Made by a program: the position numbers and the translations under genes
The notes under the pieces: generated by a model
Told to the model about the DNA's origin: nothing
The model's database searches: none
Seen by the model: the letters and a program-made list of their open reading frames with translations, nothing else
Assembly: GCA_039654915.1 (NCBI GenBank)
Contig: CM077593.1
Span: 114,067,413 to 114,131,412, forward strand
Reading direction: 5' to 3'
From: Aquilaria yunnanensis
Lineage: Eukaryota > Streptophyta > Magnoliopsida > Malvales > Thymelaeaceae
DNA: 64,000 bases
In this document: piece by piece, positions 10,746 through 43,818 of the stretch
Position numbering within the stretch: the first letter of the stretch is position 1
How the letters are laid out: the number at the start of each line of letters is the position of its first letter

Positions 10746-10753
10746 TTATACTC

Positions 10754-21707: not shown

Positions 21708-21743
<36 letters not shown>

Positions 21744-24395: not shown

Positions 24396-24680
24396 TTCGG
24401 AAGTATAAAATTTCATACAAATTAATTAATTTAAAAATCCACATTTCGACTAATCCAGTTAAAATTTCTAATTTTGAAAATTAACTGAGAATTATTTAAA
24501 AGCAAAGCAAAACAAAATTAAAATCAACTAAGGTGCCAATTTTTGGGCGTTTTAACAAAGTTGTTTTAACGTAACCGTACTCCCGATCCCCGAACTCTCG
24601 CAGACCAATTTTAAGGTGACCAATCGACCTAGGTGAAACCGATTGGTGGCGACTCCCGAAAACCCGACGTTGCCACAGCT

Positions 24681-24698
24681 TGGCGACTTCGCTGGGGA
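24681..24698 (+). other. Primer-binding site
   Basis: TGGCGACTTCGCTGGGGA begins three bases after the 5' LTR. The leading TGG pairs with a tRNA CCA end. Sites of this kind in Tat/Ogre elements are usually assigned to tRNA-Arg; I could not check the primer. Confidence 0.8.
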
Positions 24699-25790
24699 CT
24701 CGACGTTAGTGAGTCGAGCCTAAAGTTGATTTGTTTTAATTTACTTTGCTTATTATGTGGATTTTTATATGCTATATTTACTTAGCGAAAACATGCATTA
24801 TGGATTCACAATATGAAGCTCTATACCCGAGCTTACTTAAATCGAACACGATTCTTTCTAAGCGGAATTGGTGTTGTTGTCCTTGTGAGGCCATGGTCTC
24901 CAAGCCTTCACCGGTTTCAAAGTAGCAAAGTAGTGTATTGCCTTCTGAGACGGTTAGTCTCTGCATGGGCCCACGAAAAGCTACGACTCGAATTAATCCA
25001 TTCCTTACATTAACCCTAGAGGGTAAGGAATCGGGCCGTCACTATAATTTAGTGACGGGATTCGGGAACTATCCCTTGCCTTTTTGATAAGCCACCTTAT
25101 GCATATAGAACTCCCCACTTAACCATAGAACTAACCATAGTATTCCTCCCATTTACCAACGCCATAAGCATATCCTTGTTATGCTGTGTTGTTGCTCTAC
25201 ACTTTTATTTTCGTATTTATGGTTTTAACTCATTTTTCCATAATAGTTCATGAGTTGTTAATTGCTATTTAAGTTATTAATAAACTTATCTTTCTTTTGT
25301 TATACTTCTGTTTTGTGCAAATATTCTTCATGCATCAAAACCACGCATCAAACTATACTAACTTTTTGGTCTTTTTAATAACAACTAAAAGTCTTGAAGT
25401 TCCATGATATTGGATAAGCAAACTCACTCATTGCATGCATTCCATTACATTAATCACGTGCATATAAAGTCTGATAAAAATAATCTCATTGCATGCATTT
25501 CATTACATCAATCACACGCATATAAAATCTGATAAAAACATAATCTCATTGCATACATCCATTACATTAATCACGTGCATATAAAGTCTGATAAAAACAT
25601 AATCTCGTTGCATACATCCATTACATCAATCACGTGTATACAAAGTCTGATAAAAACATAATCTCATTTTTCCTACTTGCATCCATTGCATCAATCACAT
25701 ACACATAGGATCTAATAAAATATACCTTACTTTTAAAAGGATAAAATTGGACCTCGACACCGATATTCAATTCGGCTCCAAATAAGATTA
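24699..25790 (+). other. 5' leader of the retroelement with 59-bp tandem repeats
   Basis: Non-coding leader between PBS and gag. From about 25423 to 25720 there are five tandem units of 58-60 bp (starts near 25431, 25489, 25549, 25608 and a degenerate fifth), with core TTGCATGCAT...ATCACGTGCATATAAA. No convincing coding frame. Confidence 0.65.
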
Positions 25791-27326
25791 ATGGCAGAAC
25801 AAATCGAAGGACGTCTCATAAAGATAGAGTCCAAGATAGAAAGTATGGCCGAACAAATGAGACAATTAATCGAGCTAATCAAGGCGAAAGCAATTCAAGA
25901 AGCACAAGTTCAGCCACCCATGACAGAAAGAGAAATGGTCACTTTGTTTGTCCAGACATTGAAGTACCTATATTATGACGAACTCATTGGCAATTCGGCA
26001 ACTAATTTTTCTAACATTGTCATGTCTGGAGAAAGAATCGAGCATGAGATTAGGACTGGGAATATTGCTGAATCCTTTAATAATCCTATAAAAAGAGGAG
26101 GACCATCCAGAAGAAAAGATGACGAAGTACAACAAATAGGACGCGGAAGAAGGATTCCCCTCGTGGATACGGTGGCTATCGGACCTCGCCTATCCTATTT
26201 TGCCAATGGGCCCGATAATTACCTTCCAAATAGGCCCAATGATTATCCTCTAAATAGGCCCAATGATTATCCTCTAAATAGGCCCAATGATTATCCTCTA
26301 AATAGGCCCAATGATTATCCTCTGAATAGGCCCAATAATTATCCTCCAAATAGGCCCAATGATTATCCTTCCAATAGGCCCAACAATTATCCTTTTAACA
26401 GACCTAATCAGTCATGGCCACCTGCTCCTACTCCTCCAGTACCTGCACCAAGACCAAGAGAAGTTTTCACACCAATTTCCATGACTTATACTGAGTTATA
26501 CCCAAAACTCATCGAAAGACAATTTATCCGTCCAATTCCTACAAAGCCATTCAAACCCCCATATCCAAGGTGGTATGACCCTAACATTACCTGCCCATAT
26601 CATGATGGCGTTCCAGGCCATGGCTTGGAAAACTGCATGGCATTGAAGCGTATAGTTCAACAATTAATCGAGTCAAAGTGGTTGGACTTTTCCGATGAAC
26701 CAAACGTCACTCACAATCCATTGCCGCCTCATCAAGCAAAACCAGTCAATATGATAGAAGAACACCAGCCGATAAAGAAGTCAGTCAACGATATCATAAC
26801 CCCTCTTAAGCATGTATATTCATGCCTTCTAAAAGAAGGGGTTATCATCCGGAAGTCTTCTTTTAAACATGAAGAAGTCAAAGATGAGGACTGGTGTGAC
26901 TTTCATGACAGTAAAAGTCATTCTATCCAAGAATGCTCAGAATTCCGTGAAAGTCTACAAAGGCTCATGGACTCATCCCAACTCATCATTTCTACGTCGG
27001 ATAAAGATGATGATGTAAATGTGATCACTAAAAAACGGGAAGTCAATGCTACGCCAAAACCACTAGTTATACCAATTTCAAAATCTATTGTCAAGCCTTT
27101 AAGAACTCGAGTCCCGAGGTCATTCCTCTACAAATCAGACAAGGCTGTTCCATGGAGCCATGATTACACTTCCAACATCACATCAACTCCGTTAGAAGTT
27201 AGGAGTATGACTAGAAGTGGTCCATGTTACTCTCCAGAACAAATGTACAAGCTTCGACAAGATAAGAACGTCACAGACCCAACAAGTGAGCCTCTAGATA
27301 CAGATACAGATACATCTAAAGAGTAA
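25791..27326 (+). CDS. Retrotransposon gag polyprotein, capsid domain partly deleted
   Basis: 511 residues. Residues 1-36 are a charged coiled-coil-like segment. The reading then jumps straight to AQVQPPMTEREMVTLF (39-54), the last part of the plant gypsy capsid domain, so most of the capsid core expected before it is missing. Residues about 135-210 are octapeptide repeats NRPNDYPL. Two CCHH-type knuckles follow: CPYHDGVPGHGLENC (~268-282) and CDFHDSKSHSIQEC (~367-380), both typical of Tat-lineage gag. It should bind element RNA and build particles, but loss of the capsid core makes function doubtful. It ends in TAA, followed in the same frame by AAG ATG of the protease frame. ATG 25791 is the first in the frame and has a purine-rich context. 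Confidence 0.85.
   Translation: MAEQIEGRLIKIESKIESMAEQMRQLIELIKAKAIQEAQVQPPMTEREMVTLFVQTLKYLYYDELIGNSATNFSNIVMSGERIEHEIRTGNIAESFNNPIKRGGPSRRKDDEVQQIGRGRRIPLVDTVAIGPRLSYFANGPDNYLPNRPNDYPLNRPNDYPLNRPNDYPLNRPNDYPLNRPNNYPPNRPNDYPSNRPNNYPFNRPNQSWPPAPTPPVPAPRPREVFTPISMTYTELYPKLIERQFIRPIPTKPFKPPYPRWYDPNITCPYHDGVPGHGLENCMALKRIVQQLIESKWLDFSDEPNVTHNPLPPHQAKPVNMIEEHQPIKKSVNDIITPLKHVYSCLLKEGVIIRKSSFKHEEVKDEDWCDFHDSKSHSIQECSEFRESLQRLMDSSQLIISTSDKDDDVNVITKKREVNATPKPLVIPISKSIVKPLRTRVPRSFLYKSDKAVPWSHDYTSNITSTPLEVRSMTRSGPCYSPEQMYKLRQDKNVTDPTSEPLDTDTDTSKE
26212..26406 (+). repeat. 24-bp in-frame tandem repeat in gag
   Basis: About eight units of 24 bp encode NRPNDYPL and near variants. The unit length keeps the frame. 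The middle units are nearly identical, pointing to recent expansion by slippage or unequal exchange. Confidence 0.85.
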
Positions 27327-27329
27327 AAG

Positions 27330-28043
27330 ATGTCTCAAGAGGTGACAGATGAACAAACTACTGAGTTCCTTAAACTCATGAAGCAAAGTGAGTACAGTGC
27401 CGTGGAGCAGTTAAACCACCTGCCAACAAAGATCTCCATACTTTCACTACTCATAAGCTCTGATGCTCATCGAGAAACCCTCCTCAAAGTCTTGAATAAG
27501 GCCTATGTTGAGCCAGATATTTCAGTGAATAATTTTGACCACCTCGTCAACAACATCACCGCACAGAATCTCATCACATTCACTGACGATGAGATACCAG
27601 CAGAAGGAAGGGGTCACTCTAAGGCTCTATATATTTCGGTTAAATACAAAGATCGAACTATGACTAGAGTTATTGTTGATAATGGGTCAGCTCTAAACAT
27701 AATGCCAATTGAGACCTTACACAAGTTTGGTATAGACTCATCATACCTCAACTACAGTCATATCACTATTCAAGCATTTGACGGGACGAATAGAAATGTC
27801 GTCGGAAAAATAGAGCTGCCAATAGAGATCGGCCCTTGTGTCTTTCATATCACATTCCAAGTTATGGACATTAATCCTTCTTATACTTGTCTGTTGGGAA
27901 GACCATGGATTCATATGGCCGGAGCAATTCCCTCCTCATTACACCAAAAAATGAAATTCATTTTTGAAGGAAAGTTAATCACAGTCTTTGCTGAAGAAGG
28001 CATTCTGCTATCATCTATATCAATAGTAGCAAAGGCCAAGTGA
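27330..28043 (+). CDS. Retrotransposon aspartic protease (pro)
   Basis: 237 residues in the frame of gag, separated from it only by TAA-AAG (27324-27329), so gag-pro was probably one frame or is joined by stop readthrough. The catalytic motif is VDNGSALNIMP (Asp at residue 117), in the D-N-G form common in Tat-lineage elements instead of D-S/T-G. Later come FDGTNRNVVGKIELP and LLGRPWIHMAGAIPSSLHQ, the C-terminal part of this retropepsin family. It would cleave gag. The frame ends without running into reverse transcriptase, which is absent. Confidence 0.85.
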   Translation: MSQEVTDEQTTEFLKLMKQSEYSAVEQLNHLPTKISILSLLISSDAHRETLLKVLNKAYVEPDISVNNFDHLVNNITAQNLITFTDDEIPAEGRGHSKALYISVKYKDRTMTRVIVDNGSALNIMPIETLHKFGIDSSYLNYSHITIQAFDGTNRNVVGKIELPIEIGPCVFHITFQVMDINPSYTCLLGRPWIHMAGAIPSSLHQKMKFIFEGKLITVFAEEGILLSSISIVAKAK

Positions 28044-31000
28044 CCTTCTCTTCCAAGTTGGTGTGACCCAAATCCCAAATGTAACTGAAAAGTCTGTGGT
28101 GCTGAAACTCAAGGTCCAACAGTTGGTCGAGTCTAAGTTGCTAGGCCATGATGTGATTGATAATTGAAAGTGAAGATTTTGAGCTGGAATTACATTGATT
28201 TTGGAAGGGCTCCAAGTCAGATCTGACCTAACAGTCCGCATACATTTTCGAATGACAGGGAATCCTTTGAATAAACTTGTATCTTTGAAAGCTTGCAAAA
28301 GTAATCTAATAGTAAAAATCTCCTAGATTTAGTCCAGAATCTAGGGTGTAGTCTTTGTTAGATGGACACCTGGTATTCTTTCTGGTACAACAAAAAGATG
28401 TAATGCGTGCATTCTACTACTTTCCATTTTTACACTCTTTGCCATTATACTATCTATTATTGCCATCACACTTTACTTTTTGACAACTGGTAATTCTTTT
28501 TGTTCTCTAACAAAAAGATGTTACGTGTACATTATACCACTTTTTAATTCCATTATTACATCTACATATTGTACCAATTTTTACCAAAAATTCAATTATT
28601 ACACCTACACATTCTATCACTTCTTACCAAAAATTCTGTTTTTACATCCATCTCTCACTCCTTTCCATTATACTATCCATTATTGCTATCATACTTTGCT
28701 TTCTAAATGATACTACTCGTGGGTGAAAATAAAAAGTTAAGGAAAATTTGATAGTAATGATCTTGAAAGTGCTGCCAAATCTAGTAAGAAGGATTTCATA
28801 TGTTGCACCTCAACCCTCAAAAAGAATTCACAGTGGTTATCAACATCCTTGCAAGGAGTCCGGGATTAACTTCCAAAGAAGTTAGCTCTCATATTAAATG
28901 ACTTCAGTGGCCTCCCAATTCTCACAAATGCTCAATACAAAAAAAAATTCTCAGTTTTCCACAACACAAATTCCAACAAAGGAAAGAAGTTCCTCCCTTC
29001 CATCAAAAGCCATTAAAGAGAAAATCCAAACAAGAAAAAAAAAATCCAAAAAAAAAAAAGAGACTGAGAAGCAAATAAAGCCACTTGAGTCATCTTACTT
29101 CAAGAAGGCTATGATCTCGGTTCTCCATAACACAAACTCCAAAAAAAAAGGAAAAAGTTCATCCCTTCCATCAAAAAGCCAACAAGGGAAAATTCAAAAC
29201 CAAAAAAAGCGAGACTGAGAGCAAACACAAGCAAGTAAGGCCACTTGAATCATCTCATTTCAAGAAGGCTATGATCTCGGTTCTCTGTAACAAAAACTCC
29301 GAAAAGGAAAAAGTTCATCCCTTCCACCAAAAAGCCAACAAGGGAAAATTCAAAACCAAAAAGAACTGAGAACAAGCACGAGCAAGCAAGGCCACTTGAG
29401 TCATCTCACTTCAAGAGAGTTATCAAATATGTTATCACCATAGCTCACACAAAAAAACAAAAAAAAAAAAAAAAAAAAAGAGGAAAAAGGGCTCAAACTA
29501 GAAAAAAAAAAAAAGAAAGAAAAAAAAGTGAGCTATGGATTCTAGACTGAAAACCTGCAAATGCGGTTTAGAACACAAAAGCAACCCTCAAACCAAGCAT
29601 GCATAAAGATCACAATAGTTGGGGGGCAACAGATGAGGTCTAACTTTCTGGAAAAGTGGCAAGTTTGAGGTCATCACTATTGAGTTTTTCACCATAATCA
29701 AATTTGCTCACGAGTAGTATTAAAAGACCCTTCTTTCACACCACTCAAACTTAACTTTATTCAGACCTAATATTTACCTCTTAATATCATTCTCATTCAG
29801 CTAAAAGACTGCCACAAAAAAAAAAAAAAAACATTCAAACTTAACTTTCCTCACACCTAACATTTACCTCTCGATATCATCCTCATTCAGTTAAAAGGCT
29901 ATTATTGTGAATCATGTTTCTACCTTATTGCCTTGCACAGTTTATGTCTTCGAGTTGGAAAGGGAAGAATGGCAGGACATTTTAATTGAAAACAAAGACC
30001 GTAAATTACTTTGTCAAGCTTTGAAAATTGATGAAAGTTTTTCTTTAAGGCCAAACCATTATTCATTAATGTATGTAGACTTAAAAGTAAGGAGATAGCT
30101 TGAGTCTTTCTTTAATAAGATGTGGTTCTTGTAAGAGAAATTTACGATCAAGTGCCATCACAAAGGTCTAAAAATTCTCAACCTTCTATTAAATCAAAGG
30201 CGAGATGATATCTCTTTCCACATAAACACCATAATCAAGGGGGAAAAGTAGTCTCTACTAAGCGCAAGAAAAGTACTGCCAAGAAAGAAGCTCAATAGAC
30301 AAGAGGGCAAGTCTTATGGATCAGAACCTGAGTCTAAGGAAGAGCAATCATTCGGACTGTAACATGGGGATAAACAAGTGTCGGCACGGCCAGAAGAAAA
30401 TGGGCAAAGCAGACATTGAAAGTAAAGCCTTTGATGGTATCAAATCCATGACAATGGATGAGTACCCGAAAGAGATATAAATTATGAGGCGGGCCAACTT
30501 TAAAGAAATTGAGGCCAAAATTCAAGAACAAGTCAAAGAAAGGGGATTTTGAAAAGAGTTGGGCTTTTGAGGCAGTGAACAAAAGCTGGAAAGCATAAAG
30601 AGATTCAATGATAGTCCAAGAAGGCAATTATAAAGAGGATCCAGTAAAGCAAAGATATGAAGAACTAGATCAATCCAAAAAAAATAAAAAATAAAAAAAT
30701 AAATATAAATAAAAATAAAAATAAAAAAAAAAAAGAACCATCAATTACACATGCTTTGCATTCATGCATTTCACATCATGCATGCATGATTTTTACACGA
30801 TAGGAATCAAATGGGAAACACATCCACCGCACCGTTACAGCAGTATAAGCTGAGATCTCAATAATATCAGCTCTTACCAATCTATCACTGGATACACAGC
30901 TAATATGCGGGACCAACCCGCATCAGGAATTCAAGGATAAGGTAGACAATATGTCAAAAGCCTGGCAATTGATTCAATAATCGAGACTACACCTGGAAGG

Positions 31001-31429
31001 ACAGGATTGACATCAGCTAGTAGTATCCAAAATAGGAGATAGCTATAGCCAAGGATAAGGCAGATATCAAAAAGGATAAAGTAGACAATATTGTCAAAAG
31101 CTTGGCAATTGATTCAATAATCGAGGCTACACCTGGAAGGACAGGATTGATGCCAGCTTAGCAGCATCCAAGATAAGAGATAGCTGTGGTCAAAGATAAG
31201 GCAGACATCAAGAAATATTGTCGTTGAAACTTTGTCAAAAGCGGACAATGGATTCAATAATCGAGGACTGGATCAACGGATAAAAAAAAAATATCTATCA
31301 AAATGAAGTAGGATCTACTTTTCCGGTTAAACGGCGGATACGGTACTCCGTGACTCTCAAGTCAGTTCTCTCAGTTGCCCATAATAACTGATTCCTTCAC
31401 CCCTTCTTTCTTTTACTTCCTCCTAGAAA
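28044..31429 (+). other. Non-coding, repeat-rich internal region where pol is missing
   Basis: No RT, RNase H or integrase motif on either strand. Repeats seen: a ~160-bp unit about three times (28940-29420, marker AAGGCTATGATCTCGGTTCT), a ~96-bp unit twice (29735-29900), and a 140-bp unit about 2.5 times (30930-31270, marker ATTGATTCAATAATCGAG), plus long A-rich runs (29450-29520, 30690-30735). A short open frame 29907-30098 (63 residues, contains EREEWQDILIENK) is unrecognised and is at best a fragment. Confidence 0.6.
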
Positions 31430-31978
31430 ATGGATCCTACTTTTTCCGCCTTGCGAAAGTATTTCCCTTCTCTCCCAATGAACATCCTCAAAAAGATCTA
31501 CCAAGTTCGCTGTGAACGATTAAGAGTTCTGATGCACAAAGGAATCCCTGAAGATGTGCAGTGGTTAATCGAAGCCAAGGTTCGTCTAGCAGGTGAAATC
31601 CCAGAGGCATTTGTGTCTCACATGCCTGGTATAGGCAAAAGCTCTTATGCCAAAAAGCGAAGAGCGAAAAGGTTACAAGTCTGCCATAAATGTGGACGGT
31701 GGACTTGTAATACTAAATGTCGTTCTTTAGGGATGATCTCTGATAATCGAGAAGATAAAATACGATTCATTAAGAATGGCCTGAGTAAAGACTCGTTGGA
31801 TGATATCCAATTGACTCTTGAGACGCATTCTTGTGGATCCGTGCAACGTGAACTTCTCGATTTATGGAGCATTTTTCATGAAGAACGAGAACGATACAGT
31901 CCCGGGAATCTGACGTTAAACGACCCTATTTGTCAGCTTGTAAGAAAACTGGATGGGAAGCAAATCCTCGACTCATAG
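31430..31978 (+). CDS. Viral-CRP-like basic cysteine-rich protein, copy 1
   Basis: 182 residues, unspliced. Order: an N-terminal amphipathic part (SALRKYFPSLPMNILKKIY), a basic patch GKSSYAKKRRAKRL (69-82), four cysteines CHKCGRWTCNTKC (85, 88, 93, 97; CX2CX4CX3C), then NREDKIRFIKNGL, and an acidic/aromatic C-terminal part ending near KLDGKQILDS. The 'YA(K/R)(K/R)RRAK - x3-4 - CxxC - Cys pair - Asn - FI..G' layout resembles the cysteine-rich nucleic-acid-binding protein of carlaviruses and relatives (Pfam Carla_C4), which acts as a silencing suppressor and/or regulator; the spacing of the second Cys pair is shorter. No host gene of this kind is known to me. Expected to bind nucleic acid. It lacks the exact TATA core of its siblings. 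Confidence 0.7.
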   Translation: MDPTFSALRKYFPSLPMNILKKIYQVRCERLRVLMHKGIPEDVQWLIEAKVRLAGEIPEAFVSHMPGIGKSSYAKKRRAKRLQVCHKCGRWTCNTKCRSLGMISDNREDKIRFIKNGLSKDSLDDIQLTLETHSCGSVQRELLDLWSIFHEERERYSPGNLTLNDPICQLVRKLDGKQILDS

Positions 31979-32137
31979 AAGCCATTAATCCCGTTACTGG
32001 ACGTAAAACCAGTGGAAGATGTAAGCCACAGTCACAATCACTGTACATACAATTTATCATATTTAAAATTTTCCATTTTTCTTTTAATAATGTATTTGCT
32101 CCCGTAAGTGTAATCGACACGTTATCCATTTCATCGC

Positions 32138-32144
32138 TATAAAT
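32138..32144 (+). promoter_or_regulatory. Promoter core of CRP-like copy 2
   Basis: TATAAAT inside TCATCGCTATAAAT, 87 bases before the ATG at 32225. The same 14-base core with one variable base precedes copies 3 and 4 and the LOG-type gene. Confidence 0.6.
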
Positions 32145-32224
32145 GCATGTTCTTCCAGTCGGTTATCTAAGTTTCCTTCAATAACTGATTCATTTCCCTC
32201 TTCTCTCAAATTCTTCTCTCATCA

Positions 32225-32773
32225 ATGGATTCTACTCTTTCTGCACTGCGAAAATACTTTCCTTCCTTTCCAATAAAAGTCCTTAAAAAGATCTACCTTG
32301 CTAGATGTGAAAGAATCAGAGTTTTTACACGCAAAGGCATTCCCGATAATGTGCAGTGGATAATTGAAGCTAAGGTCCGTCTGGCGGGTGAAGTTCCAGA
32401 TGCATTTATGCCCCGCATGCCCGGTTTAGGTAAAAGCCGTTATGCCAAAAGGCGAAGAGCAAAGAGACTAGGCGTGTGTTATAAATGTGGGCGATGGAAT
32501 TGTATTACTAAATGTCGCTCTTTAGGATACATCTCCATAAATCGTGAAGATAAAAGAAAATTCATTAAGAATGGCCTGCGTAAGGAATCTCTGGAAGATA
32601 TCCGAGAGACTCTTGAAACGCATTCTTGTGGAAAAGTGCAAGGTGAAATTATCAGTTTATGGAGGACTTACCATAAAGAACGAAACCGTTACAGTCTTGG
32701 GAATGTGACTTTAAACGATCCTGTTTGTCAGTTTGTAAGAAAACTGGATGGGAAGCAAATCCCCGACTTATAG
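32225..32773 (+). CDS. Viral-CRP-like basic cysteine-rich protein, copy 2
   Basis: 182 residues, collinear with copy 1. Basic patch GKSRYAKRRRAKRLG, zinc-finger-like CYKCGRWNCITKC at the same positions, then NREDKRKFIKNGLRKESL. It starts 795 bp after copy 1, and downstream sequence is duplicated along with the coding part, so the family grew by tandem duplication of a ~0.8-kb unit. The length is exactly kept despite many amino-acid changes, which suggests function was retained for at least part of its history. Role as for copy 1. Confidence 0.72.
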   Translation: MDSTLSALRKYFPSFPIKVLKKIYLARCERIRVFTRKGIPDNVQWIIEAKVRLAGEVPDAFMPRMPGLGKSRYAKRRRAKRLGVCYKCGRWNCITKCRSLGYISINREDKRKFIKNGLRKESLEDIRETLETHSCGKVQGEIISLWRTYHKERNRYSLGNVTLNDPVCQFVRKLDGKQIPDL

Positions 32774-32922
32774 ATGGCATTGAAGCCATTACTGGACATA
32801 AATCAGGGGAAGATGAGAGCCACGGTCATGATTCCTGTACATATAAGCTGTCATTTGTCTTTTCTTTTGACAATAATATACTTGTTCCTGTAAGCGTAAT
32901 TAACACGTTATCCTTTCATCGC

Positions 32923-32929
32923 TATAAAT
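32923..32929 (+). promoter_or_regulatory. Promoter core of CRP-like copy 3
   Basis: TATAAAT inside TCATCGCTATAAAT, 127 bases before the ATG at 33050. Confidence 0.6.
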
Positions 32930-33049
32930 GCGTGTTCTTCTTTCCGGTTAAGTAGCGGATGCAATACTCTCTGACTCTCATAATCGGTTATTTCAGTTTC
33001 CTACAATAACTGATTTCTTCATCTCTTCTCTCAAATTCTTCTTTTATCA

Positions 33050-33598
33050 ATGGATTCTACTCTTTCCGCCATGCGAAAATACTTTCCTTCCATCCCAATA
33101 AATGTTCTTAAAATGATTTACCAAGCTAGATGTGAAAGGATTAGAGTCTTTATGCACAAAGGCATTCCTGACAATGTGCGGTGGCTAATTGAAGCTAAGG
33201 TTCGTTCAGCTGGTGAAGTTCCAGAAGCGTTCTTTCCCCGTATGCCCGGCTTTGGTAAAAGCGCTTATGCCAAAAAGCGAAGAGCAAAGAGGCTAGGTGT
33301 CTGTCATAAATGTGGACGATGGAATTGTAATACTAAATGTCGCTTTTTAGGATACATCTCCAGAAATCATGAAGATAAAAGAAAATTCATCAAGAATGGC
33401 CTGCGTAAGGAATCTTTGGATGATATCCTATTAACTTTTGAAACACATTCTTGTGAAATAGTGCAATGGGAAATTATGGATTTATGATGGACTTTCCGTA
33501 AAGAACAGGATCGTTACAGTCTTGGAAATCTAACTTTTAATGACCCTGTTTGCCAGTTTGTGAGAAAACTGGATGGGAAGCAAATCCCCGACTTATAG
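33050..33598 (+). pseudogene. Viral-CRP-like protein copy 3, nonsense codon
   Basis: Aligns over the full 182-codon length with its sisters, but the TGG (Trp) codon in 'LW' at 33485-33487 is TGA, ending the product at 145 residues. The basic patch GKSAYAKKRRAKRLG and CHKCGRWNCNTKC are intact, so a shortened protein that still carries the nucleic-acid-binding core could be made. Beyond the stop the frame stays open to 33598 with the normal ending (NDPVCQFVRKLDGKQIPDL), so the lesion is young. Confidence 0.75.
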
Positions 33599-33748
33599 AA
33601 GGCATTGAAGCCGTTACTAGACATAAATCAGTGGAAGATGAGAGCCACAGTCATGATTGCTGTACATATAAGCTGTCATTTGTCTTTTCTTTTGACAATA
33701 ATGTACTTGCTTCTGTAAGTGTAATAAACGCATTATCCCTTTCATCAC

Positions 33749-33755
33749 TATAAAT
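33749..33755 (+). promoter_or_regulatory. Promoter core of CRP-like copy 4
   Basis: TATAAAT inside TCATCACTATAAAT, 66 bases before the ATG at 33815. Confidence 0.6.
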
Positions 33756-33814
33756 ATGTGTTAGTTATGTTCGTTCCCTACAATCACTAATTTCTTTCTT
33801 TGCCTCCTTCATCA

Positions 33815-34363
33815 ATGGAGTCTTCTCTTTCCGCCCTACGAAAGTATTTTCCTTCCTTCCCAATAAATGTTCTTAAAAAGATTTATCAAGCTAGATGTGA
33901 ACGATTCAGAGTATTTATGCACAAAGGCATTCCTGATAATGTGCGGTGGCTAATTGAAGCTAAGGTTCGTTCAGCTGGTGAAGTTCCCGAAGCGTTCTTT
34001 CCCCGTATGCCCGGCTTTGGTAAAAGCGCTTATGCCAAAAAAAGAAGAGCAAAGAGGCTAGGCGTTTGTCATAATTGTGGATGGTGGATTTGCGGCAATA
34101 AATGTCGTGCTCCAGGAGTGATCACCAGAAATCGTAATGATAGAATAAGATTCATTAAGAATGGCTTGCGTAAGGAATCTCTAGAAGATATTCGAGAGGT
34201 TCTTGAAGCGCATTCTTGCGGAATAGTGCAATTTGAGGTTGTTGGATTATGGATAATTTTCCAAAAAGAACGAGATCGTTACAGTCTTGGGAATCTGACC
34301 CTAAACGACCCTGTTTGCCAGTTTGTGAGAAAGCTAGATGAGATGCAAATCACCGATTCATAG
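33815..34363 (+). CDS. Viral-CRP-like basic cysteine-rich protein, copy 4
   Basis: 182 residues when started at ATG 33815, which matches the start of the other copies (TCAATGGA context); the reading frame is open a little further upstream but without ATG. Basic patch GKSAYAKKRRAKRLG; cysteine motif CHNCGWWICGNKC with the same four Cys positions. N-terminal two thirds are nearly identical to copy 3 (residues ~32-85), while the zinc finger and C-terminal half differ more, suggesting gene conversion between copies. It is the last of the array, 1.1 kb before the LOG-type gene. Confidence 0.72.
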   Translation: MESSLSALRKYFPSFPINVLKKIYQARCERFRVFMHKGIPDNVRWLIEAKVRSAGEVPEAFFPRMPGFGKSAYAKKRRAKRLGVCHNCGWWICGNKCRAPGVITRNRNDRIRFIKNGLRKESLEDIREVLEAHSCGIVQFEVVGLWIIFQKERDRYSLGNLTLNDPVCQFVRKLDEMQITDS

Positions 34364-34416
34364 AAAGCATTGAAGCCATTACTGGACGCAAAGCCAGTGG
34401 AAGACGAGGATTAAAG

Positions 34417-34870
34417 TCACGATTACTGTACGTACTAGCTGTCGCTTTTGAAATTTTCCTCCCCTTTTGGTAATAATGTATCCACTCCTGACGTGAACCA
34501 AAGTCACGATTACTGTACGTACTAGCTGTCGCTTTTGAAATTTTCCTCCCCTTTCAGCGATAATGTATCCACTCCTGACATGAGCCATAGTTACGATTAC
34601 TGTACGTGCTAGCTGTCGCTTTTGAAATTTTCCTCCCCTTTGGCAATAATGTACCCACTCCTGACACGGACTACTGTATATAGCTGCCACTTTTGAAATT
34701 TTCCTTCCCTTCCAACAATCACATACCTACTCCTGACGTAAGCTACAGTAGTGACTACTGTACATGCTAGCAGCTATTTTGAAAATTTTCCTCCTCTTTT
34801 AACGATAGTGTACCCATACCTGACCAGAGTCATACTCGTGACTACTGTGTATAGCTGGCAATAATGTATC
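34417..34870 (+). repeat. ~87-bp tandem repeats upstream of the LOG-type gene
   Basis: Units start at 34417, 34504 and 34591, then degenerate copies near 34668, 34750 and 34835. Core: ATTACTGTACGTACTAGCTG, then TTGAAATTTTCCTCCCCTTT and AATGTATCCACTCCTGAC. The unit resembles the single spacer before CRP copies 2-4 (CTGTACATATAAGCTGTC, then AATAATGTACTTG), so one upstream module seems to have been multiplied before LOG. Possible enhancer; not shown. Confidence 0.7.
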
Positions 34871-34910
34871 CACTCTTGAAAATAAAATTATTGCCTTATC
34901 TCTTCATCTC

Positions 34911-34917
34911 TATAAAT
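34911..34917 (+). promoter_or_regulatory. Promoter core of the LOG-type gene
   Basis: TATAAAT inside TCATCTCTATAAAT, 40 bases before the ATG at 34951. If it works as a TATA box the mRNA leader is only about 10 bases long. Confidence 0.55.
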
Positions 34918-34950
34918 ATATCATCTTTTCTCACAAGGATAAGGATAGGA

Positions 34951-35580
34951 ATGGAGAAAACCCCAACTCGTAAATCCCGAAGTATTTGTGTATTTTCTGG
35001 GGCTTTTCCTGGAAAAGATGAAGAGTATTTAAAGGCAGCCAACCATTTGGGTAGAGTATTAGCTGAGCGAAAAATACATTTAGTTTATGGAGGAGGTAGT
35101 GTCGGATTAATGGGAGGTGTAGCATCAGCAGCATCTTTAGGAGGAAGTCAAGTTTTGGGCATCATCCCTGGACCTTTGAAATTTGTTTCTGGGGGTACGA
35201 TTGGAGAAGAATTAGTGGTTAAAAATTTGCAAGAGCGTGTGTTACAAATGCTTTTAAATGCTGATGCTTTTATCGCTCTACCAGGTGGTTTTGGCACGTT
35301 GGGAGAAGTCTTTCAAATTGCTTCCATGGCCCAACTTAATTTGCATAAGAAACCCATTGGGCTTTTAAATGTTAACAATTTCTTTACAGGTCTGATAGCT
35401 TTTATGGATTATGCTATGCAGAAGAATTTCATATCAAGAGTGGCACGGCGAATCATAATATCCGCAACAACTGCTGAAGAATTGCTAGATAAAATACAAG
35501 CTTTTGTTCCTGAACCAGATCCAGCAATGATTCAGATAGACTGGACACGACAGTCTTTCCCGACCAGTTCACTCCCATAA
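34951..35580 (+). CDS. LOG-type cytokinin riboside 5'-monophosphate phosphoribohydrolase, intronless, in a retroelement
   Basis: 209 residues from ATG 34951, chosen because an upstream in-frame ATG (34864) would place the TATA box inside the coding region and because family similarity begins at SICVF. LOG enzymes release active free-base cytokinin from nucleoside monophosphates in the cytosol. Visible motifs: CVFSGAFPGKDEEYL (13-27; family CVFCGSS), LVYGGGSVGLMG (44-55), Arg of QER (96) and the signature PGGFGTLGE (111-119, PGGxGTxxE with the catalytic Glu), then KPIGLLNVNNF. Length is normal for plant LOGs. Plant LOG genes have several introns; this one has none, so it was probably copied from mRNA. 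Cys-to-Ser at 16 and loss of the usual Lys after ER are unusual. The frame is intact. Activity is plausible, not proven. Confidence 0.88.
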   Translation: MEKTPTRKSRSICVFSGAFPGKDEEYLKAANHLGRVLAERKIHLVYGGGSVGLMGGVASAASLGGSQVLGIIPGPLKFVSGGTIGEELVVKNLQERVLQMLLNADAFIALPGGFGTLGEVFQIASMAQLNLHKKPIGLLNVNNFFTGLIAFMDYAMQKNFISRVARRIIISATTAEELLDKIQAFVPEPDPAMIQIDWTRQSFPTSSLP

Positions 35581-36130
35581 TGGTCCTCTACTCACCCTGT
35601 TGAAGTATTGTGGAAGAAAGAAGCGATCTGATCCGTTTTTCTTGTCCTTTAGTTTTATTATCAGCATTTTCTTTCGCGTTTCAGTTTTTCTTTTCAAGGA
35701 ATTTCTTTTCTTATAAGATAGTTTCGTCCATGCTGATATTAAAACCATGGGACAATGCCTTTAGGTTGGAATGGCTGAGTAAAGAGTAATTTTTATTACT
35801 CTTGAGACGCATCCTATTAGGTCTACTAGGCATAACATTTTGGGGTAGTTAAGCTTTAACCTTATTTGGATGACATATCTCACAAGGGAATCTATATTTA
35901 CTGAAGAAAATATTAGATGAACCTTGGATATTGATTCCAAACATCCGTTCCCTTTACATAATTTGTCAGTGTTATTGTCATCATCAAGATTCACTCATCT
36001 TATCGAAGTTTAAATTTTTGCACTCACCTATTATGAAAATTCACACTTTCGAAGAAAATTATTCCAATTTCAATTGCTTTCATATAAATTTCGCTCGAGG
36101 TCCTAAGGAAAGCTCCTTAGCCTCAAAATC
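35581..36130 (+). other. 3' sequence after the LOG-type gene, no gene seen
   Basis: Pyrimidine-rich and AT-rich sequence with no convincing coding frame. At about 36096-36125 a GAGGTCCTAAGGA...TCCTTAGCCTC inverted repeat appears, a forerunner of the hairpins in the following arrays. Confidence 0.5.
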
Positions 36131-36334
36131 AATTTTCATCATCGGGGTTTTAAGGATGGAACCTTTGCCTCGAAAACAATCAATTTTCATCATCGGGGTT
36201 TTAAGGATGAAACCTTTGCCTCGAAAACAATCAATTTTCATCATCGGGGTTTTAAGGAAGGAACCTTTGCCTCGAAAACAACCAATTTTCATCATCGGGG
36301 TTTTAAGGATGGAACCTTTGCCTCGAGATCAATC
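36131..36334 (+). repeat. 51-bp tandem repeat, four units
   Basis: Units with CATCATCGGGGTTTTAAGGA begin at 36137, 36188, 36239 and 36290. The 51-bp length is a multiple of three, so frames stay open on both strands across it; this does not make it a gene. The motif shares the GGTTnTAAGGA...AACCTTT theme with the larger array that follows. Confidence 0.85.
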
Positions 36335-39300
36335 ATTCAGTCCATCTTACAACGATAGAACCTTTCCTATCGTTAGAGGTTCTAAGGACCTTTCCTTAAC
36401 CTCAAACAAGCAATCAATCATTCAGTCCATCTTACAACGATAGAACCTTTCCTATCGTTAGAGGTTCTAAGGAACTTTCCTTAACCTCAAACAAACAATC
36501 AATCATTCAGTCCATCTTACAACGATAGAACCTTTCCTATCGTTAGAGGTTCTAAGGACCTTTCCTTAAACCTCAAACAAACAATCAATCATTCAGTCCA
36601 TCTTACAACGATAGAACCTTTCCTATCGTTAGAGGTTCTAAGAATCTTTCCTTAACCTCAAACAAACAATCAATCATTCAGTCCATCTTACAACGATAGA
36701 ACCTTTCCTATCGTTAGGGGTTCTAAGGACCTTTCCTTAAACCTCAAACAAACAATCAATCATTCAGTCCATCTTACAACGATAGAACCTTTCCTATCGT
36801 TAAAGGTTCTAAGGACCTTTCCTTAAACCTCAAACAAACAATCAATCATTCAGTCCATCTTACAACGATAGAACCTTTTCTATCGTTAGAGGTTCTAAGG
36901 ACCTTTCCTTAAACCTCAAACAAACAATCAATCATTCAGTCCATCTTACAACGATAGAACCTTTCCTATCGTTAGAAGTTCCAAGGACCTTTCCTAAACC
37001 TCAAACAAACAATCAATCATTCAGTCCATCTTACAACGATAGAACCTTTCCTATCGTTAGAGGTTCCAAGGACCTTTCCTAAACCTCAAACAAACAATCA
37101 ATCATTCAGTCCATCTTACAACGATAGAACCTTTCCTATCGTTAGAGGTTCCAAGGACCTTTCCTTAAACCTCAAACAAACAATCAATCATTCAGTCCAT
37201 CTTACAACGATAGAACCTTTCCTATCGTTAGAGGTTCTAAGGACCTTTCCTTAAACCTCAAACAAACAATCAATCATTCAGTCCATCTTACAACGATAGA
37301 ACCTTTCCTATCGTTAGAGGTTCTAAGAATCTTTCCTTAACCTCAAACAAACAATCAATCATTCAGTCCATCTTACAACGATAGAACCTTTCCTATCGTT
37401 AGGGGTTCTAAGGACCTTTCCTTAAACCTCAAACAAACAATCAATCATTCAGTCCATCTTACAACGATAGAACCTTTCCTATCGTTAGAGGTTCTAAGGA
37501 CCTTTCCTTAAACCTCAAACAAACAATCAATCATTCAGTCCATCTTACAACGATAGAACCTTTCCTATCGTTAGAGGTTCTAAGGACCTTTCCTTAAACC
37601 TCAAACAAACAATCAATCATTCAGTCCATCTTACAACGATAGAACCTTTCCTATCGTTAGAGGTTCTAAGGATCTTTCCTTAAACCTCAAACAAACAATC
37701 AATCATTCAGTCCATCTTACAACGATAGAACCTTTCCTATCGTTAGAGGTTCCAAGGACCTTTCCTAAACCTCAAACAAACAATCAATCATTCAGTCCAT
37801 CTTACAACGATAGAACCTTTCCTATCGTTAGAGGTTCTAAGGACCTTTCCTTAAACCTCAAACAAACAATCAATCATTCAGTCCATCTTACAACGATAGA
37901 ACCTTTCCTATCGTTAGAGGTTCTAAGGACCTTTCCTTAAACCTCAAACAAACAATCAATCATTCAGTCCATCTTACAACGATAGAACCTTTCCTATCGT
38001 TAGAGGTTCCAAGGACCTTTCCTTAAACCTCAAACAAACAATCAATCATTCAGTCCATCTTACAACGATAGAACCTTTCCTATCGTTAGAGGTTCTAAGG
38101 ATCTTTCCTTAACCTCAAACAAACAATCAATCATTCAGTCCATCTTACAACGATAGAACCTTTCCTATCGTTAGGGGTTCTAAGGACCTTTCCTTAAACC
38201 TCAAACAAACAATCAATCATTCAGTCCATCTTACAACGATAGAACCTTTCCTATCGTTAGGGGTTCTAAGGACCTTTCCTTAAACCTCAAACAAACAATC
38301 AATCATTCAGTCCATCTTACAACGATAGAACCTTTCCTATCGTTAGAGGTTCTAAGGACCTTTCCTTAAACCTCAAACAAACAATCAATCATTCAGTCCA
38401 TCTTACAACGATAGAACCTTTCCTATCGTTAGAGGTTCTAAGGATCTTTCCTTAAACCTCAAACAAACAATCAATCATTCAGTCCATCTTACAACGATAG
38501 AACCTTTCCTATCGTTAGAGGTTCTAAGGATCTTTCCTTAAACCTCAAACAAACAATCAATCATTCAGTCCATCTTACAACGATAGAACCTTTCCTATCG
38601 TTAGAGGTTCTAAGGGTCTTTCCTTAAACCTCAAACAAACAATCAATCATTCAGTCCATCTTACAACGATAGAACCTTTCCTATCGTTAGAGGTTCTAAG
38701 GACCTTTCCTTAACCTCAAACAAACAATCAATCATTCAGTCCATCTTACAACGATAGAACCTTTCCTATCGTTAGAGGTTCTAAGGACCTTTCCTTAAAC
38801 CTCAAACAAACAATCAATCATTCAGTCCATCTTACAACGATAGAACCTTTCCTATCGTTAGAGGTTCTAAGGACCTTTCCTTAAACCTCAAACAAACAAT
38901 CAATCATTCAGTCCATCTTACAACGATAGAACCTTTCCTATCGTTAGAGGTTCCAAGGACCTTTCCTAAACCTCAAACAAACAATCAATCATTCAGTCCA
39001 TCTTACAACGATAGAACCTTTCCTATCGTTAGAGGTTCTAAGGATCTTTCCTTAAACCTCAAACAAACAATCAATCATTCAGTCCATCTTACAACGATAG
39101 AACCTTTCCTATCGTTAGAGGTTCTAAGGACCTTTCCTTAAACCTCAAACAAACAATCAATCATTCAGTCCATCTTACAACGATAGAACCTTTCCTATCG
39201 TTAGAGGTTCCAAGGACCTTTCCTAAACCTCAAACAAACAATCAATCATTCAGTCCATCTTACAACGATAGAACCTTTCCTATCGTTAGAGGTTCTAAGG

Positions 39301-40057
39301 ACCTTTCCTTAAACCTCAAACAAACAATCAATAATTCAGTCCATCTTACAACGATAGAACCTTTCCTATCGTTAGAGGTTCTAAGGACCTTTCCTTAAAC
39401 CTCAAACAAACAATCAATCATTCAGTCCATCTTACAACGATAGAACCTTTCCTATCGTTAGAGGTTCCAAGGACCTTTCCTTAAACCTCAAACAAACAAT
39501 CAATCATTCAGTCCATCTTACAACGATAGAACCTTTCCTATCGTTAGAGGTTCCAAGGACCTTTCCTTAAACCTCAAACAAACAATCAATCATTCAGTCC
39601 ATCTTATAACGATAGAACCTTTCCTATCGTTAGAGGTTCCAAGGACCTTTCCTTAAACCTCAAACAAACAATCAATCATTCAGTCCATCTTACAACGATA
39701 GAACCTTTCCTATCGTTAGAGGTTCTAAGGACCTTTCCTTAAACCTCAAATAAACAATCAATCATTCAGTCCATCTTACAACGATAGAACCTTTCCTATC
39801 GTTAGGGGTTCTAAGGACCTTTCCGTCTTACAACGATAGAACCTTTCCTATCGTTAGAGGTTCTAAGGACCTTTCCTTAAACCTCAAACAAACAATCAAT
39901 CATTCAGTCCGTCTTACAACGATAGAACCTTTCCTATCGTTAGAGGTTCTAAGGACCTTTCCTTAAACCTCAAACAAACAATCAATCATTCAATCCATCT
40001 TACAACGATAGAACCTTTCCTATCGTTAGAGGTTCTAAGGACCTTTCCTTAAACCTC
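36335..40057 (+). repeat. 85/86-bp satellite-like array, about 43 units, two hairpins per unit
   Basis: Units are highly alike (variants such as TCTAAGGACC, TCCAAGGACC, TCTAAGGATC, and one unit shortened at 39824). Each contains AACGATAG-AACCTTTC-CTATCGTT, a perfect 8-bp stem with 8-nt loop, and GAGGTT..AAGG-ACCTTT-CCTT..AACCTC, a second stem. It lies just before the PPT, in the 3' untranslated region. Tandem arrays in this position are known for Tat/Ogre elements and can seed genomic satellites. The few variant types recur in blocks, showing unequal exchange. Confidence 0.95.
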
Positions 40058-40150
40058 AGAGTTTAGGCGGCGAGAAGGTTTTCAATGCCTAGCTAAGCTG
40101 GACGAAATTTGGTAACTAACTTTGCATACATCATGTCCCATGAAGCATGC

Positions 40151-40159
40151 AAAGGGGGG
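40151..40159 (+). other. Polypurine tract
   Basis: AAAGGGGGG four bases before the 3' LTR start (GCAGC-TGTTG junction at 40164), the expected plus-strand primer of an LTR retrotransposon. Confidence 0.8.
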
Positions 40160-40163
40160 CAGC

Positions 40164-40839
40164 TGTTGACACCCAATTTCGTCCGGCTATTAAAATAATT
40201 TTAAAAAAAATTAAATAAAAAAAAATTAAATAAAAAAAATGTATTATTATTATTATTATTGTTATTATTATTACTAAATTTTTTTTAATTAGTTTAAAAT
40301 ATATATATATTTTTTTTTTGTTTTGTTTTGTGAAGATTTGATATATGTGTGTATATGTGTATGTTTGAAAGAAAAAAAGAAAACTCCATAAAAATGACAA
40401 AATTTAAAAGTTTGAGGTAAAAATGACAAAATTAAGAAGTTTCAGGCAAAATTGACAAATTCTGAAAGTTCCAGGAGCATTTGGCAGTTTGTCACATAAA
40501 ATTTTGAGCCTGCCGACGTTTTTGGCTCAAATTGACAGAAAACGACAAAATTGTCAAAATCAGAAGCTTCAGGAACTTATCCGGAGCCTGAGAGACGTAA
40601 AGGACTAAAACTGTCATTTTACCAATTTAAGAGATAAGTTTGAAATTTTTTATTAATTTATCCTTCAACAGTTCAGCTAAACTTCCTCTATAAATAGCCC
40701 CCCAAATTTTGTGCTGAACACAGAAAAAAATAGCAAAAAAACTTAGAGCTCCGTTTCAAAAAAAAGAGAAAATTACAGCCCTTAGCCCCAGCCCTCTTCC
40801 CTTCTTCCCCAGAAAGCCAAAATTTTTTTTCACTGCTGT

Positions 40840-40875
<36 letters not shown>

Positions 40876-43813
40876 GTGCCTCTCTCCTCACCGTCGCCGC
40901 CTCCGCCGTGCCCGTACCGTCGTCGCCCCGCCGTCCCGCCTCCGCCGTGCCCGTGCCGCCGTCGCCCCGCCGGCCCGCCGCCGCGTCCCCTTTTCTTTTC
41001 CCTCCTTTTCCTTCTTTCTCCTCGGACCTCCGCCCCTCGCCGGCCGCTGTCTCCGCCGTGCCGTCGCTCGCCGTCCCGTGCCCGTGCCGCCGCGCCACCC
41101 CCGCCGTCCCCCCCTGCCCCTGGCCCAGCCGCCGCCGGCCGCCAGCCCCTTTCCCCCCTCGCGCTCGCGTCGCGCCTGTACCCAGCAAAATTCAAAAATT
41201 TCAACCTTTAGGTAAAATTCTACTTTAATACTTCATCTTTTCAATTCTTTTCATTTTGGTCACTAATCTTTTTATTTTGTTTTTTTTTTTCAGAATTAAT
41301 TACTAACTTTATTTTTTACTTGTGTATTTATTTGTTTATTATTGTTATTGTTACTAACCTTTTTTTTTGTTATTATTAACTTGTTAACTAACTTACTAAC
41401 AACTAACTTTTAACATTATTATTGTTACTAACCTTTTAATTTTTGCATTATTACTAACTTTTATTATTGTTAATTAATTTAATCAACTTGGTTAATTAAC
41501 AATTAATTAATTTGGCTAAATTTTATTATTTTTGTTAATTAATTAATTTAATTAACTTGACTAACTTTTTATTATTGTTGTTAACAATTAATTTAATTAA
41601 ACTTGGCTAATTTTTATTATTGTTGTTAATTAATTTAATCTAACTTTTACTAACCTTTTTTATTGTTATTAACTAACTAATCCAACTAATCTAACTATAT
41701 TAATTGTGCTAACTTTTATTATTATTGTGTTATTAAAGTGGATGGCCAAAAAGCCCCACTTTATTAATTGAATTTTTTTTATGATTAAAAGATAAAAAAA
41801 GGAATTTTACGTGAATAATTTTCTAAAGGCCAATAAAAATTACTTTTTTTATTTTGAAACAAAGTTTTTATTCCTTTTAATAAATAAACATAATGAAATA
41901 ATTCAAAAATAAAATAAATAAATAAATAAACATAAAATCATTCTTTTAATACATCTTTAAAATTAATAATTAATGAAATAAAAAAAAAAAAATTAAAACT
42001 CCATGACCAAATGCTCCGCCAGGATTCATGGCTCGGAAATATTTTTAAATAAAATATATAAATAAATTTTTTCTTTATAAAAAATAAAAAAAAAAAACTT
42101 TCGACTAATATATTAATTATCTATCAATATATAATTTTTTTTTAGTTTTCTTTATTAATAAAAAGAATAAAAAGCGTAAAAATTTTGGGTTAATATTTTA
42201 TTCAGTAATATTTTACTTATTAAATTATATAACTTTTTGTTTCTTTTATAAAAATCTTAATCAAATAATTTCAAAATAATACAAAATAAAACAAAAATAA
42301 TTGAATTTTCTCTTAAATATTTTTGACTTATTGATTAGATATATTTTCAGAAATATAAATTAAAATTAAAAAAAAAAATCTTTCATCAAACAAAGAAGAA
42401 TATAAAAATAAAAATATCAAGACTTTTGTTTTAAAATACATATAAGTTTTCGGTTAAATAATCTTTTATTCCAAAATAAATTAAATAAATATCAAAACTT
42501 TTCTTCTTTTGTTTAAAATTTTTGATTCTCTTAATAAAAAAAATAATAAAAAAATAATAAAAAATAATAAAAAAAATAAAAATTTTTAGTTCATGGTATA
42601 TTGGCTGGAAACTGTCTCGTGCCCGCTTTTGAGCTGCTTCACCTGGTGAAGAGGGTCTGGCTGAGTAACAACGCCCCGTACCATGATCAAAATTTTTATT
42701 TTTAAACTCTTTAATTCTTTTAAATTAACTTCTTATTAAATAAAAATTAATTATTATTTTTTTTTAATTCTTTTATAAATTGAGTAATCCTTTAAAATAA
42801 TAAATATCTTTCATTAAACAAGAAAACAAAAAAAGTAAACAAGAAAAAAAAAGAAAGATAAGAAAAATAAAAGAAAGATAAGAAAGAAAAATAAAAGAAA
42901 GATAAGAAAGAAAAGAAAGATAAAAAAAATAAAAGAAAAGATAAGAAAAAGAAAAGAAAGAAAGAAAAGACAAGAAAAATAAAAGAAAAATAAGAAAGAA
43001 AAATAAAAGAAAGATAAGATAAAGAAAAGAAAGGAAAGATAAGAAAAAGAAAAGAAAGATAAAAGAAAGAAAAAGAAAAAGAAAAGAAAGAAAGAAAAGA
43101 ATAAAAAAGAAAGAAAAGAAAAGAAATTAAAAGAAATTTAAAAAAAAAAAAAAAGTAAAATAAGTAAAAAAGAAGAAAAAGAAAGAAAGTAAAAAAAGAA
43201 GTAAAAATATAAAGATAAATTTTTAGTTAGTATTAAAAATCATTCATAAATAAAAAGAATTACCATTTAAAAATTAATTTCATAATAATAAGAATTAAAT
43301 AATTACGATAAATCAATTTCCATATCCGGATGATCCGGCAGGATCTACGGTTTGGAAAATATCAAACTTTTTAAAATAAATAAATTAAATAAATACAAAG
43401 ATAAAAATCCATGTTTACAATATGGATTAAATTATTTAAAATTTCACCAAATTCCGTGTCCAAATGACTCGGCAGAGTCCATGGTTCGGAATCAAATCTT
43501 CCGTGTCCAAATGACTCGGCAGAGTCCATGGTTCGGAAGTATAAAATTTCATACAAATTAATTAATTTAAAAATCCACATTTCGACTAATCCAGTTAAAA
43601 TTTCTAATTTTGAAAATTAACTGAGAATTATTTAAAAGCAAAGCAAAACAAAATTAAAATCAACTAAGGTGCCAATTTTTGGGCGTTTTAACAAAGTTGT
43701 TTTAACGTAACCGTACTCCCGATCCCCGAACTCTCGCAGACCAATTTTAAGGTGACCAATCGACCTAGGTGAAACCGATTGGTGGCGACTCCCGAAAACC
43801 CGACGTTGCCACA
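40164..43813 (+). repeat. 3' LTR
   Basis: 3650 bp, almost identical to the 5' LTR. Differences seen by eye include C/T at 21055/40188, small AT and A-run length changes, G/A in the GCC-rich block (CCGTGCC to CCGTACC), A/C in TGATCCGCC to TGCTCCGCC, and T/C in the third hairpin loop (GGTA to GGCA). It is followed by the CTGCC target duplication. Confidence 0.95.
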
Positions 43814-43818
43814 CTGCC

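Follow-up and report, generated by a model that had tools for sequence, protein, structure and literature searches.

A recent LTR retrotransposon of Aquilaria yunnanensis carrying a tandem array of likely relatives of viral nucleic-acid-binding protein genes and a LONELY GUY-type gene

How a small gene with an apparent likeness to those of plant RNA viruses comes to stand four times in tandem inside a retrotransposon, and what it might do there, is the question raised by a 64,000-nucleotide stretch of the Aquilaria yunnanensis genome (assembly GCA_039654915.1, contig CM077593.1, positions 114,067,413 to 114,131,412 of the forward strand; hereafter the window). The original prediction, made from the letters alone, took the array at 31430-34363 for a captured and amplified gene encoding a carlavirus-type nucleic-acid-binding protein (NABP; family Carla_C4), carried by a long terminal repeat (LTR) retrotransposon. 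It seems on balance probable that the locus is a recent, non-autonomous LTR retrotransposon with a coding-strand cargo of five genes, i.e. four of the NABP superfamily and one of LONELY GUY (LOG) type. The anatomy of the element and the homology of its array, taken jointly, are well supported and can be held with high confidence. Two things go beyond the original prediction: the element lacks pol, and a LOG gene with the same type of promoter adjoins the array.

A retrotransposon without pol and its five-gene cargo

The element occupies 21031-43813 (22,783 bp, of which 15,486 bp are internal). Alignment of the LTRs to each other delimits a 5' LTR of 3647 bp (21031-24677, plus strand, with a TATA-like TATAAAT at 21557) and a 3' LTR of 3650 bp (40164-43813, plus strand), which have TG...CA ends and differ by 13 substitutions over 3646 aligned sites (Kimura two-parameter distance, K2P, 0.0036). 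A target-site duplication, CTGCC, flanks the whole (21026-21030 on the left and 43814-43818 on the right, both unstranded). Three bases past the 5' LTR, in a TGGCG... stretch, lies a sequence resembling a primer-binding site (TGGCGACTTCGCTGGGGAC, 24681-24699, plus strand), and four bases 5' of the 3' LTR lies one resembling a polypurine tract (AAAGGGGGG, 40151-40159, plus strand). Near-identical LTRs with these ends, a 5-bp duplication and both priming sites are what characterises an LTR retrotransposon, which bears out that the array lies inside one. The insertion is recent; assumed substitution rates would put it at 0.14-0.26 million years, a figure that is only indicative.

In plus-strand order, the internal part holds a gag-like gene, a protease, ~ 3.4 kb without recognised domains, the four NABP-like units, a set of 87-bp repeats, the LOG-type gene and an 86-bp array, followed by the 3' LTR. 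The six frames of 24678-40163 (stops being read as X outside open reading frames, ORFs) gave no Pfam family for reverse transcriptase, RNase H and integrase, and the element is therefore regarded as non-autonomous. By its layout and the type of its primer site it is probably a Ty3/gypsy element. The site is putatively of the tRNA-Arg type of Ogre/Tat elements; primer site and layout are suggestive of the Tat/Ogre lineage, the reverse transcriptase on which a phylogeny would be built being absent from the element.

The array consists of four units of ~ 0.8 kb on the plus strand, starting at 31430, 32225, 33050 and 33815 (spacings of 795, 825 and 765). Units 1 (31430-31978), 2 (32225-32773) and 4 (33815-34363) each encode 182 amino acids, as had been predicted for all four, while unit 3 (33050-33487) encodes 145. 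The coding stretch nevertheless measures 546 nt in every unit (in unit 3 across its stop), and the three spacers between the units show 30-62 gap columns per pair. Units 2-4 are 70-74% identical to unit 1, and all four share a C-X2-C-X4-C-X3-C finger behind a YAKKRRAKRL or YAKRRRAKRL patch, exactly the arrangement that had been noticed at the outset. With frames open in three of four copies, a uniform coding length and an excess of synonymous change in every pair of units (Fisher p from 7e-7 to 3e-16 in the six pairs), the array is not a product of chance. It is a tandem amplification, and its carriage by a structurally clear LTR element agrees with what had been proposed.

The array has evolved under constraint at the protein level, as judged from the codons: synonymous divergence (dS) between units is 0.38-0.98, and the ratio of nonsynonymous to synonymous divergence (dN/dS) is 0.19-0.30 in all six pairs, reaching 0.11-0.18 in the first 66 codons and 0.13-0.30 in the core of basic patch and finger. 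In a simulation under a simple two-rate model, covering units 1, 2 and 4, the chance that a neutral frame like theirs would stay open after 0.19-0.25 substitutions per site was 0.7-2.9%. Between units 3 and 4, identity is 96 and 92% in frame bases 92-273 but drops to 75 and 67% in the two sixths of the frame that follow; the units are thus mosaics, between which exchange has occurred, and for this reason dS is a lower guide only. Set against the LTR distance of 0.0036, it makes the array ~ 100-fold or more older than the insertion. Either the element family carried the array through many rounds, or the array had already grown old at the source locus from which it was then captured.

The LOG-type gene (34951-35580, plus strand) is a single open frame for a full LOG-type protein of 209 amino acids with the motif PGGFGTLGE. 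Its protein scores 150.1 bits with TIGR00730 (5.1e-44, cut-off 96.35) and 106.4 bits with Lysine_decarbox (cut-off 27), and it matches Arabidopsis At2g37210 (PDB 2a33) at 1.3e-51. Alignments to 2a33 and 1ydh show that the PGGxGTxxE motif and the aligned Arg of the MHQRKAEM stretch are kept, residues that we presume to be catalytic. For the NCBIfam equivalog NF058542 it reaches 98.9 bits against a cut-off of 300, known plant LOGs not having been scored against that model. Plant LOG genes contain introns, whereas here there is one open frame, and the copy therefore probably derives from a spliced RNA.

Array and LOG gene appear to be coupled through their promoters. Upstream of units 2-4 and of LOG, on the plus strand, stands a module ending in TATAAAT, at 32122-32144 (TATAAAT at 32138, 87 bp 5' of the unit 2 ATG), 32908-32929 (32923, 127 bp 5' of the unit 3 ATG), 33733-33755 (33749, 66 bp 5' of the unit 4 ATG) and 34896-34917 (34911, 40 bp 5' of the LOG ATG). 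The pattern TTATCY-N0-2-TTCATCNCTATAAAT, derived from these same four sites, matches exactly only there in the window (four times) and not once in 100 shuffles; going by this shared module, units 2-4 and LOG look co-regulated. Between the array and LOG lie the 87-bp repeats (34413-34879, plus strand; 2.9 regular copies to 34666, diverged thereafter), which are related to the spacer that follows the NABP units (blastn of 31983-32095 against 34368-34481, 71.6% identity, E 2.6e-10). At a K2P of 0.18-0.33, the spacers have diverged less than units 2-4 have at synonymous sites (dS 0.38-0.56), as would fit either promoter constraint or exchange between copies. Upstream of unit 1 (31290-31429), what is shared with unit 3 is limited to the leader of the spacer, and sequence further upstream aligns poorly.

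Kinship with viral cysteine-rich proteins

Each of the four proteins was scanned against Pfam singly and gave one passing stretch. All of them exceed the cut-offs of both Viral_NABP (PF05515; 27.1-32.5 bits against a gathering cut-off of 23) and Carla_C4 (21.9-26.9 bits against 20.9), with E-values for units 1 to 4 of 1.1e-7, 2.2e-7, 3.6e-6 and 4.8e-6 in the former and 4.6e-6, 3.1e-5, 1.4e-5 and 1.7e-4 in the latter, and no other Pfam family reached its cut-off with these proteins. The check proposed together with the original prediction, i.e. a profile search against Carla_C4 and related viral families, has thus come out in its favour. Viral_NABP gives the better and longer match, to which the flanks of the core contribute; it is colinear over ~ 105 residues (protein 16-120 to profile 96-202), so that ~ 95 positions at the start of the profile remain uncovered, as do ~ 60 residues at the C-terminal end of the protein (60-62 in three of the units, 25 in the truncated unit 3).

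Masking and shuffling indicate that an ordered, specific core is needed for these matches, while the flanks help the broader Viral_NABP only. With the basic patch masked, or patch and finger together, none of three masked proteins matched; all matches at E ≤ 10 were lost in five of five shuffles of the 13 patch residues of unit 2, and neither family matched units 1 and 2 when reversed (0 of 2). When the flanks of unit 1 were shuffled, its Viral_NABP score fell from 32.5 to 17.0-20.9 bits and reached the cut-off in none of 11 cases, so that the flanks are worth 11.6-15.5 bits and the similarity does extend past the core. Shuffling the non-cysteine residues of the finger left Carla_C4 with 20.9-27.0 bits (three shuffles).

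On sequence grounds it is therefore likely that the proteins are distant homologues of the cysteine-rich proteins (CRPs) that make up the NABP superfamily of flexiviruses, rather than carlavirus proteins as such. Like the carlavirus CRPs (e.g. p12 of chrysanthemum virus B, CVB), the proteins have a basic patch of nuclear localisation signal (NLS) type directly adjoining a four-cysteine finger; they differ in being longer, in standing in tandem in a retroelement and in having no other viral family beside them, six-frame Pfam scans having found no coat, movement or replicase family within the element, and hence none of the flexivirus coat and movement genes that neighbour a carlavirus CRP gene. 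The genomic setting likewise sets them apart from Viral_NABP members in general, among which the CRPs of allexiviruses and mandariviruses are presumably the nearest. Both of these groups are described as having an NLS plus a zinc finger (excerpted text of PMC12172455). A scan of IMG/VR with the four-protein alignment returned 71 pattern stretches, none of which was confirmed; a degenerate pattern built from the DNA of the core matches two stretches there, a number given without a chance count.

A possible role and the rival accounts

Viral proteins of the NABP superfamily bind nucleic acid, and LOG enzymes activate cytokinin. CVB p12 is described as a nuclear transcription activator and cytoplasmic silencing suppressor (PMC7588395) which causes hyperplasia (PMC12172455), and several of its relatives among carla-, mandari- and allexivirus CRPs suppress silencing as well. 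In the favoured history, an ancestor of the element would have acquired an NABP gene, with template switching from an RNA virus as the likeliest route, and, in a separate event, the spliced mRNA of a LOG gene; the NABP gene would have been duplicated in tandem together with its promoter, its copies exchanging sequence, and pol functions would be supplied in trans by an autonomous partner. The NABP-like proteins might work like the viral ones, either dampening small-RNA silencing in the cytoplasm or entering the nucleus by means of the basic patch and activating transcription there, or both, while LOG might release active cytokinin and so bring about a dividing-cell state that favours copying and inheritance of the element. 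By analogy with the viral proteins and plant LOGs, such a combination of weakened small-RNA control and dividing cells would be an economical model, which is put forward tentatively. A bolder version is doubtful: that the element is a selfish vehicle for reprogramming cells, in which a silencing-suppressor or transcription-factor gene, captured from an RNA virus and multiplied into a battery with its own promoters, and a promoter-coupled LOG make the hosting cells lose small-RNA control and keep dividing, with replication enzymes provided in trans and the NABP-like proteins driving the cassette by binding to the 87-bp repeats. Should a plant retrotransposon indeed keep silencing suppressors of viral type under selection, transposons, like viruses, may counter small-RNA defence with dedicated proteins, and their coupling to a hormone-activating gene through one type of promoter would be a compact instance of a mobile element acting on cell fate. 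The locus would, besides, document in datable form how genes have passed between plant RNA viruses and retroelements, and the direction of that passage can be tested by a tree.

A number of observations weigh against the favoured reading, and some of them suit other accounts. On the side of kinship, masking the core left no match (0 of 2) and masking the finger alone brought both scores under their cut-offs, so that the homology comes down to one short core plus a weak flank signal. With the non-cysteine finger residues shuffled, Viral_NABP fell to 20.0-21.3 bits, under its cut-off of 23, in three of three cases; Carla_C4, for its part, stayed at or above its cut-off in 10 of the 11 flank shuffles of unit 1 and therefore, taken alone, says little past a core of ~ 28 residues. 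The finger is CX2CX4CX3C in all four units versus CX2CX12CX4C in a carlavirus CRP (one carlavirus, from a section of PMC10141686), and structure prediction from the four-row alignment was poor (predicted local distance difference test, pLDDT, 44.5). Since the spacing differs and the flanks help Viral_NABP only, the carlavirus label first given to the array is too narrow, although the link to Carla_C4-type proteins stands in so far as all four pass both cut-offs. That the match hangs on so short a core, and that Carla_C4 so often survives shuffled flanks, is also what might be expected from convergence, i.e. a basic patch that came to lie beside a cysteine finger independently and resembles the viral proteins by accident; with the match lost whenever the order of the patch is shuffled, the gain that Viral_NABP draws from the flanks, the colinearity over ~ 105 residues and the failure of the reversed proteins, this is quite improbable. 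The direction of transfer is another matter. The patch-plus-finger protein could belong to an old plant or transposon family from which the flexiviruses took their gene, the cargo being the element's own or a host cluster, and this would agree with a protein longer than the 91 positions of the Carla_C4 profile whose C-terminal residues lie outside the Viral_NABP match, with the eukaryotic-looking promoters of units 2-4, with a third-position GC of 0.34-0.40 in units 1, 2 and 4 against 0.36-0.41 in gag and protease, and with the lack of coat, movement and replicase families in the element. Both Pfam families that were matched are, however, viral by name, with none other at cut-off, and such a reverse or shared origin is considered unlikely, if not strikingly so.

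The remaining adverse points concern the cargo. Unit 1 is without the TATA module; unit 3 is cut short by an in-frame TGA (33485-33487), past which similarity to the other units runs on; and the last 84 codons are under weaker constraint (dN/dS 0.30-0.64). The measured constraint comes from a single insertion, that in the window, and may have acted before the array entered the element. The LOG protein differs from plant LOGs across the stretch aligned to MHQRKAEM and is short of two residues, for which reason its activity is not assured. As to the viral models, suppression by CVB p12 is termed weak, and of two silencing triggers tried on a mandarivirus CRP it suppressed only one (both in the available text of PMC12172455). 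Another account is that of a passive passenger: a tandem array that already existed, be it of host genes or from an old viral integration, would have been swept once, together with LOG, into a defective element and would have no role in transposition. In its favour, the element does lack reverse transcriptase, RNase H and integrase, a single insertion is in view, the dS could have accrued at a source locus before capture, and unit 3 carries its stop. On the other hand, LOG has the promoter module of units 2-4 and sits behind amplified spacer copies, which suggests that the cassette was shaped as one, and LOG-type domains are reported in Gypsy consensuses from two species of Citrus and, once the filter was relaxed, from Populus (excerpt of PMC9289625), so that such cargo recurs. 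Passive carriage is accordingly judged unlikely, and the cargo-bearing element outlined above is preferred.

Precedents and further features of the window

Cargo captured by retrotransposons is known as such, whereas genes of a virus family that stand in tandem with promoters of their own and are linked to a hormone gene appear to be new. NABP or CRP cargo in a retrotransposon was not found among the matches listed from the open-access literature, nor did the family names Carla_C4 and Viral_NABP give any match there; with subscription papers outside that scope, the absence is weakly supported. The main survey of extra ORFs, and the original report of LOG-type domains, is reportedly that of Steinbauerova 2011. 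For Citrus sinensis, C. clementina and Populus trichocarpa, a LOG (YgdH) domain similar in type to the one found here is described in Ty3/Gypsy elements, where the consensuses were picked by reverse transcriptase and the excerpted text mentions no NABP-type cargo (PMC9289625). Ty3/Gypsy elements of orchids are described in the same source as having an AlkB-type m6A demethylase domain. This, too, is an additional gene related to RNA and of a sort found in some flexiviruses as well, but the domain is a different one, and that text mentions neither a tandem array nor a LOG partner (PMC9289625). Viral superfamily-1 helicase domains in insect retrotransposons are a further case of a captured RNA-virus domain, with weak silencing suppression; there, according to parts of the source, the hosts are insects, the domain is a helicase and, in LTR elements, it is fused to the polyprotein (PMC6338049). 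In cucumber, CsFRLS1 is a betaflexivirus replicase-like sequence in the nuclear genome near a retrotransposon-like sequence, but it covers a replicase region and, in the accessible part of the account, is described neither with a cysteine-rich protein nor as retrotransposon cargo (PMC3136472).

Upstream of the array, the gag-like ORF (25791-27326, plus strand) encodes 511 amino acids with two CX2H-type stretches, and its position and motifs suggest that it is gag. A Pfam scan gave no family at E ≤ 1 for it, a capsid domain not being recognised, and an IMG/VR scan gave four stretches, none confirmed. Within it, at 26205-26393, a 24-bp coding repeat of 7.9 copies specifies an RPNDYPLN-type octapeptide. 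The retropepsin-like protease ORF (27330-28043, plus strand, 237 amino acids) passes Asp_protease_2 with 24.7 bits against 24.3. Non-autonomous, gag-only LTR elements of the TR-GAG type exist, and the present element resembles them in having gag without pol; it differs in that the protease is kept and that cargo genes and a satellite region are added. The stretch between protease and array (28045-31429) holds short tandem arrays at 30933-31266 and 29069-29416, with periods of ~ 140 and ~ 160 bp.

Downstream of LOG, the satellite-like array (36328-40058, plus strand) comprises more than 40 copies of 86 bp, with 44 matches of the inverted repeat AACGATAG...CTATCGTT, through which each unit could form a hairpin. 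Chordopox_A35R scored 29.5-35.4 bits against 27 in all three minus frames of this array, with no stretch passing singly, and three to four families stayed below cut-off in its plus frames; these are summed scraps of repeats and were rejected. Such an artefact does not touch the NABP units, since each of these was scanned singly and had one passing stretch. Also set aside as noise, all under cut-off, were Pertus-S5-tox (0.22 on unit 3, 0.0052 across the whole array), Cucumo_2B (0.0045, in a part of 28045-31429 that is rich in Lys) and Pox_VERT_large (0.093), and the sole match of unit 2 in solved structures, to STENOFOLIA (E 0.51), was rejected. Scans for bacterial promoters and terminators, tRNAs and Rfam families gave nothing useful.

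Elsewhere in the window, a Helitron lies at 10709-13086; its first ORF matches Helitron_like_N (1.9e-42), and the ORF after it, which overlaps the first, has a match of REP type. An exon-like fragment of an auxin-conjugating GH3 enzyme at 4509-4904 (Pfam 8.4e-26, PDB 4b2g 1.5e-34) fits a plant nuclear origin of the DNA. Opposite-strand ORFs with identical translations of 101 amino acids, at 9193-9498 and 9690-9995, form an inverted repeat with arms of at least 300 bp.

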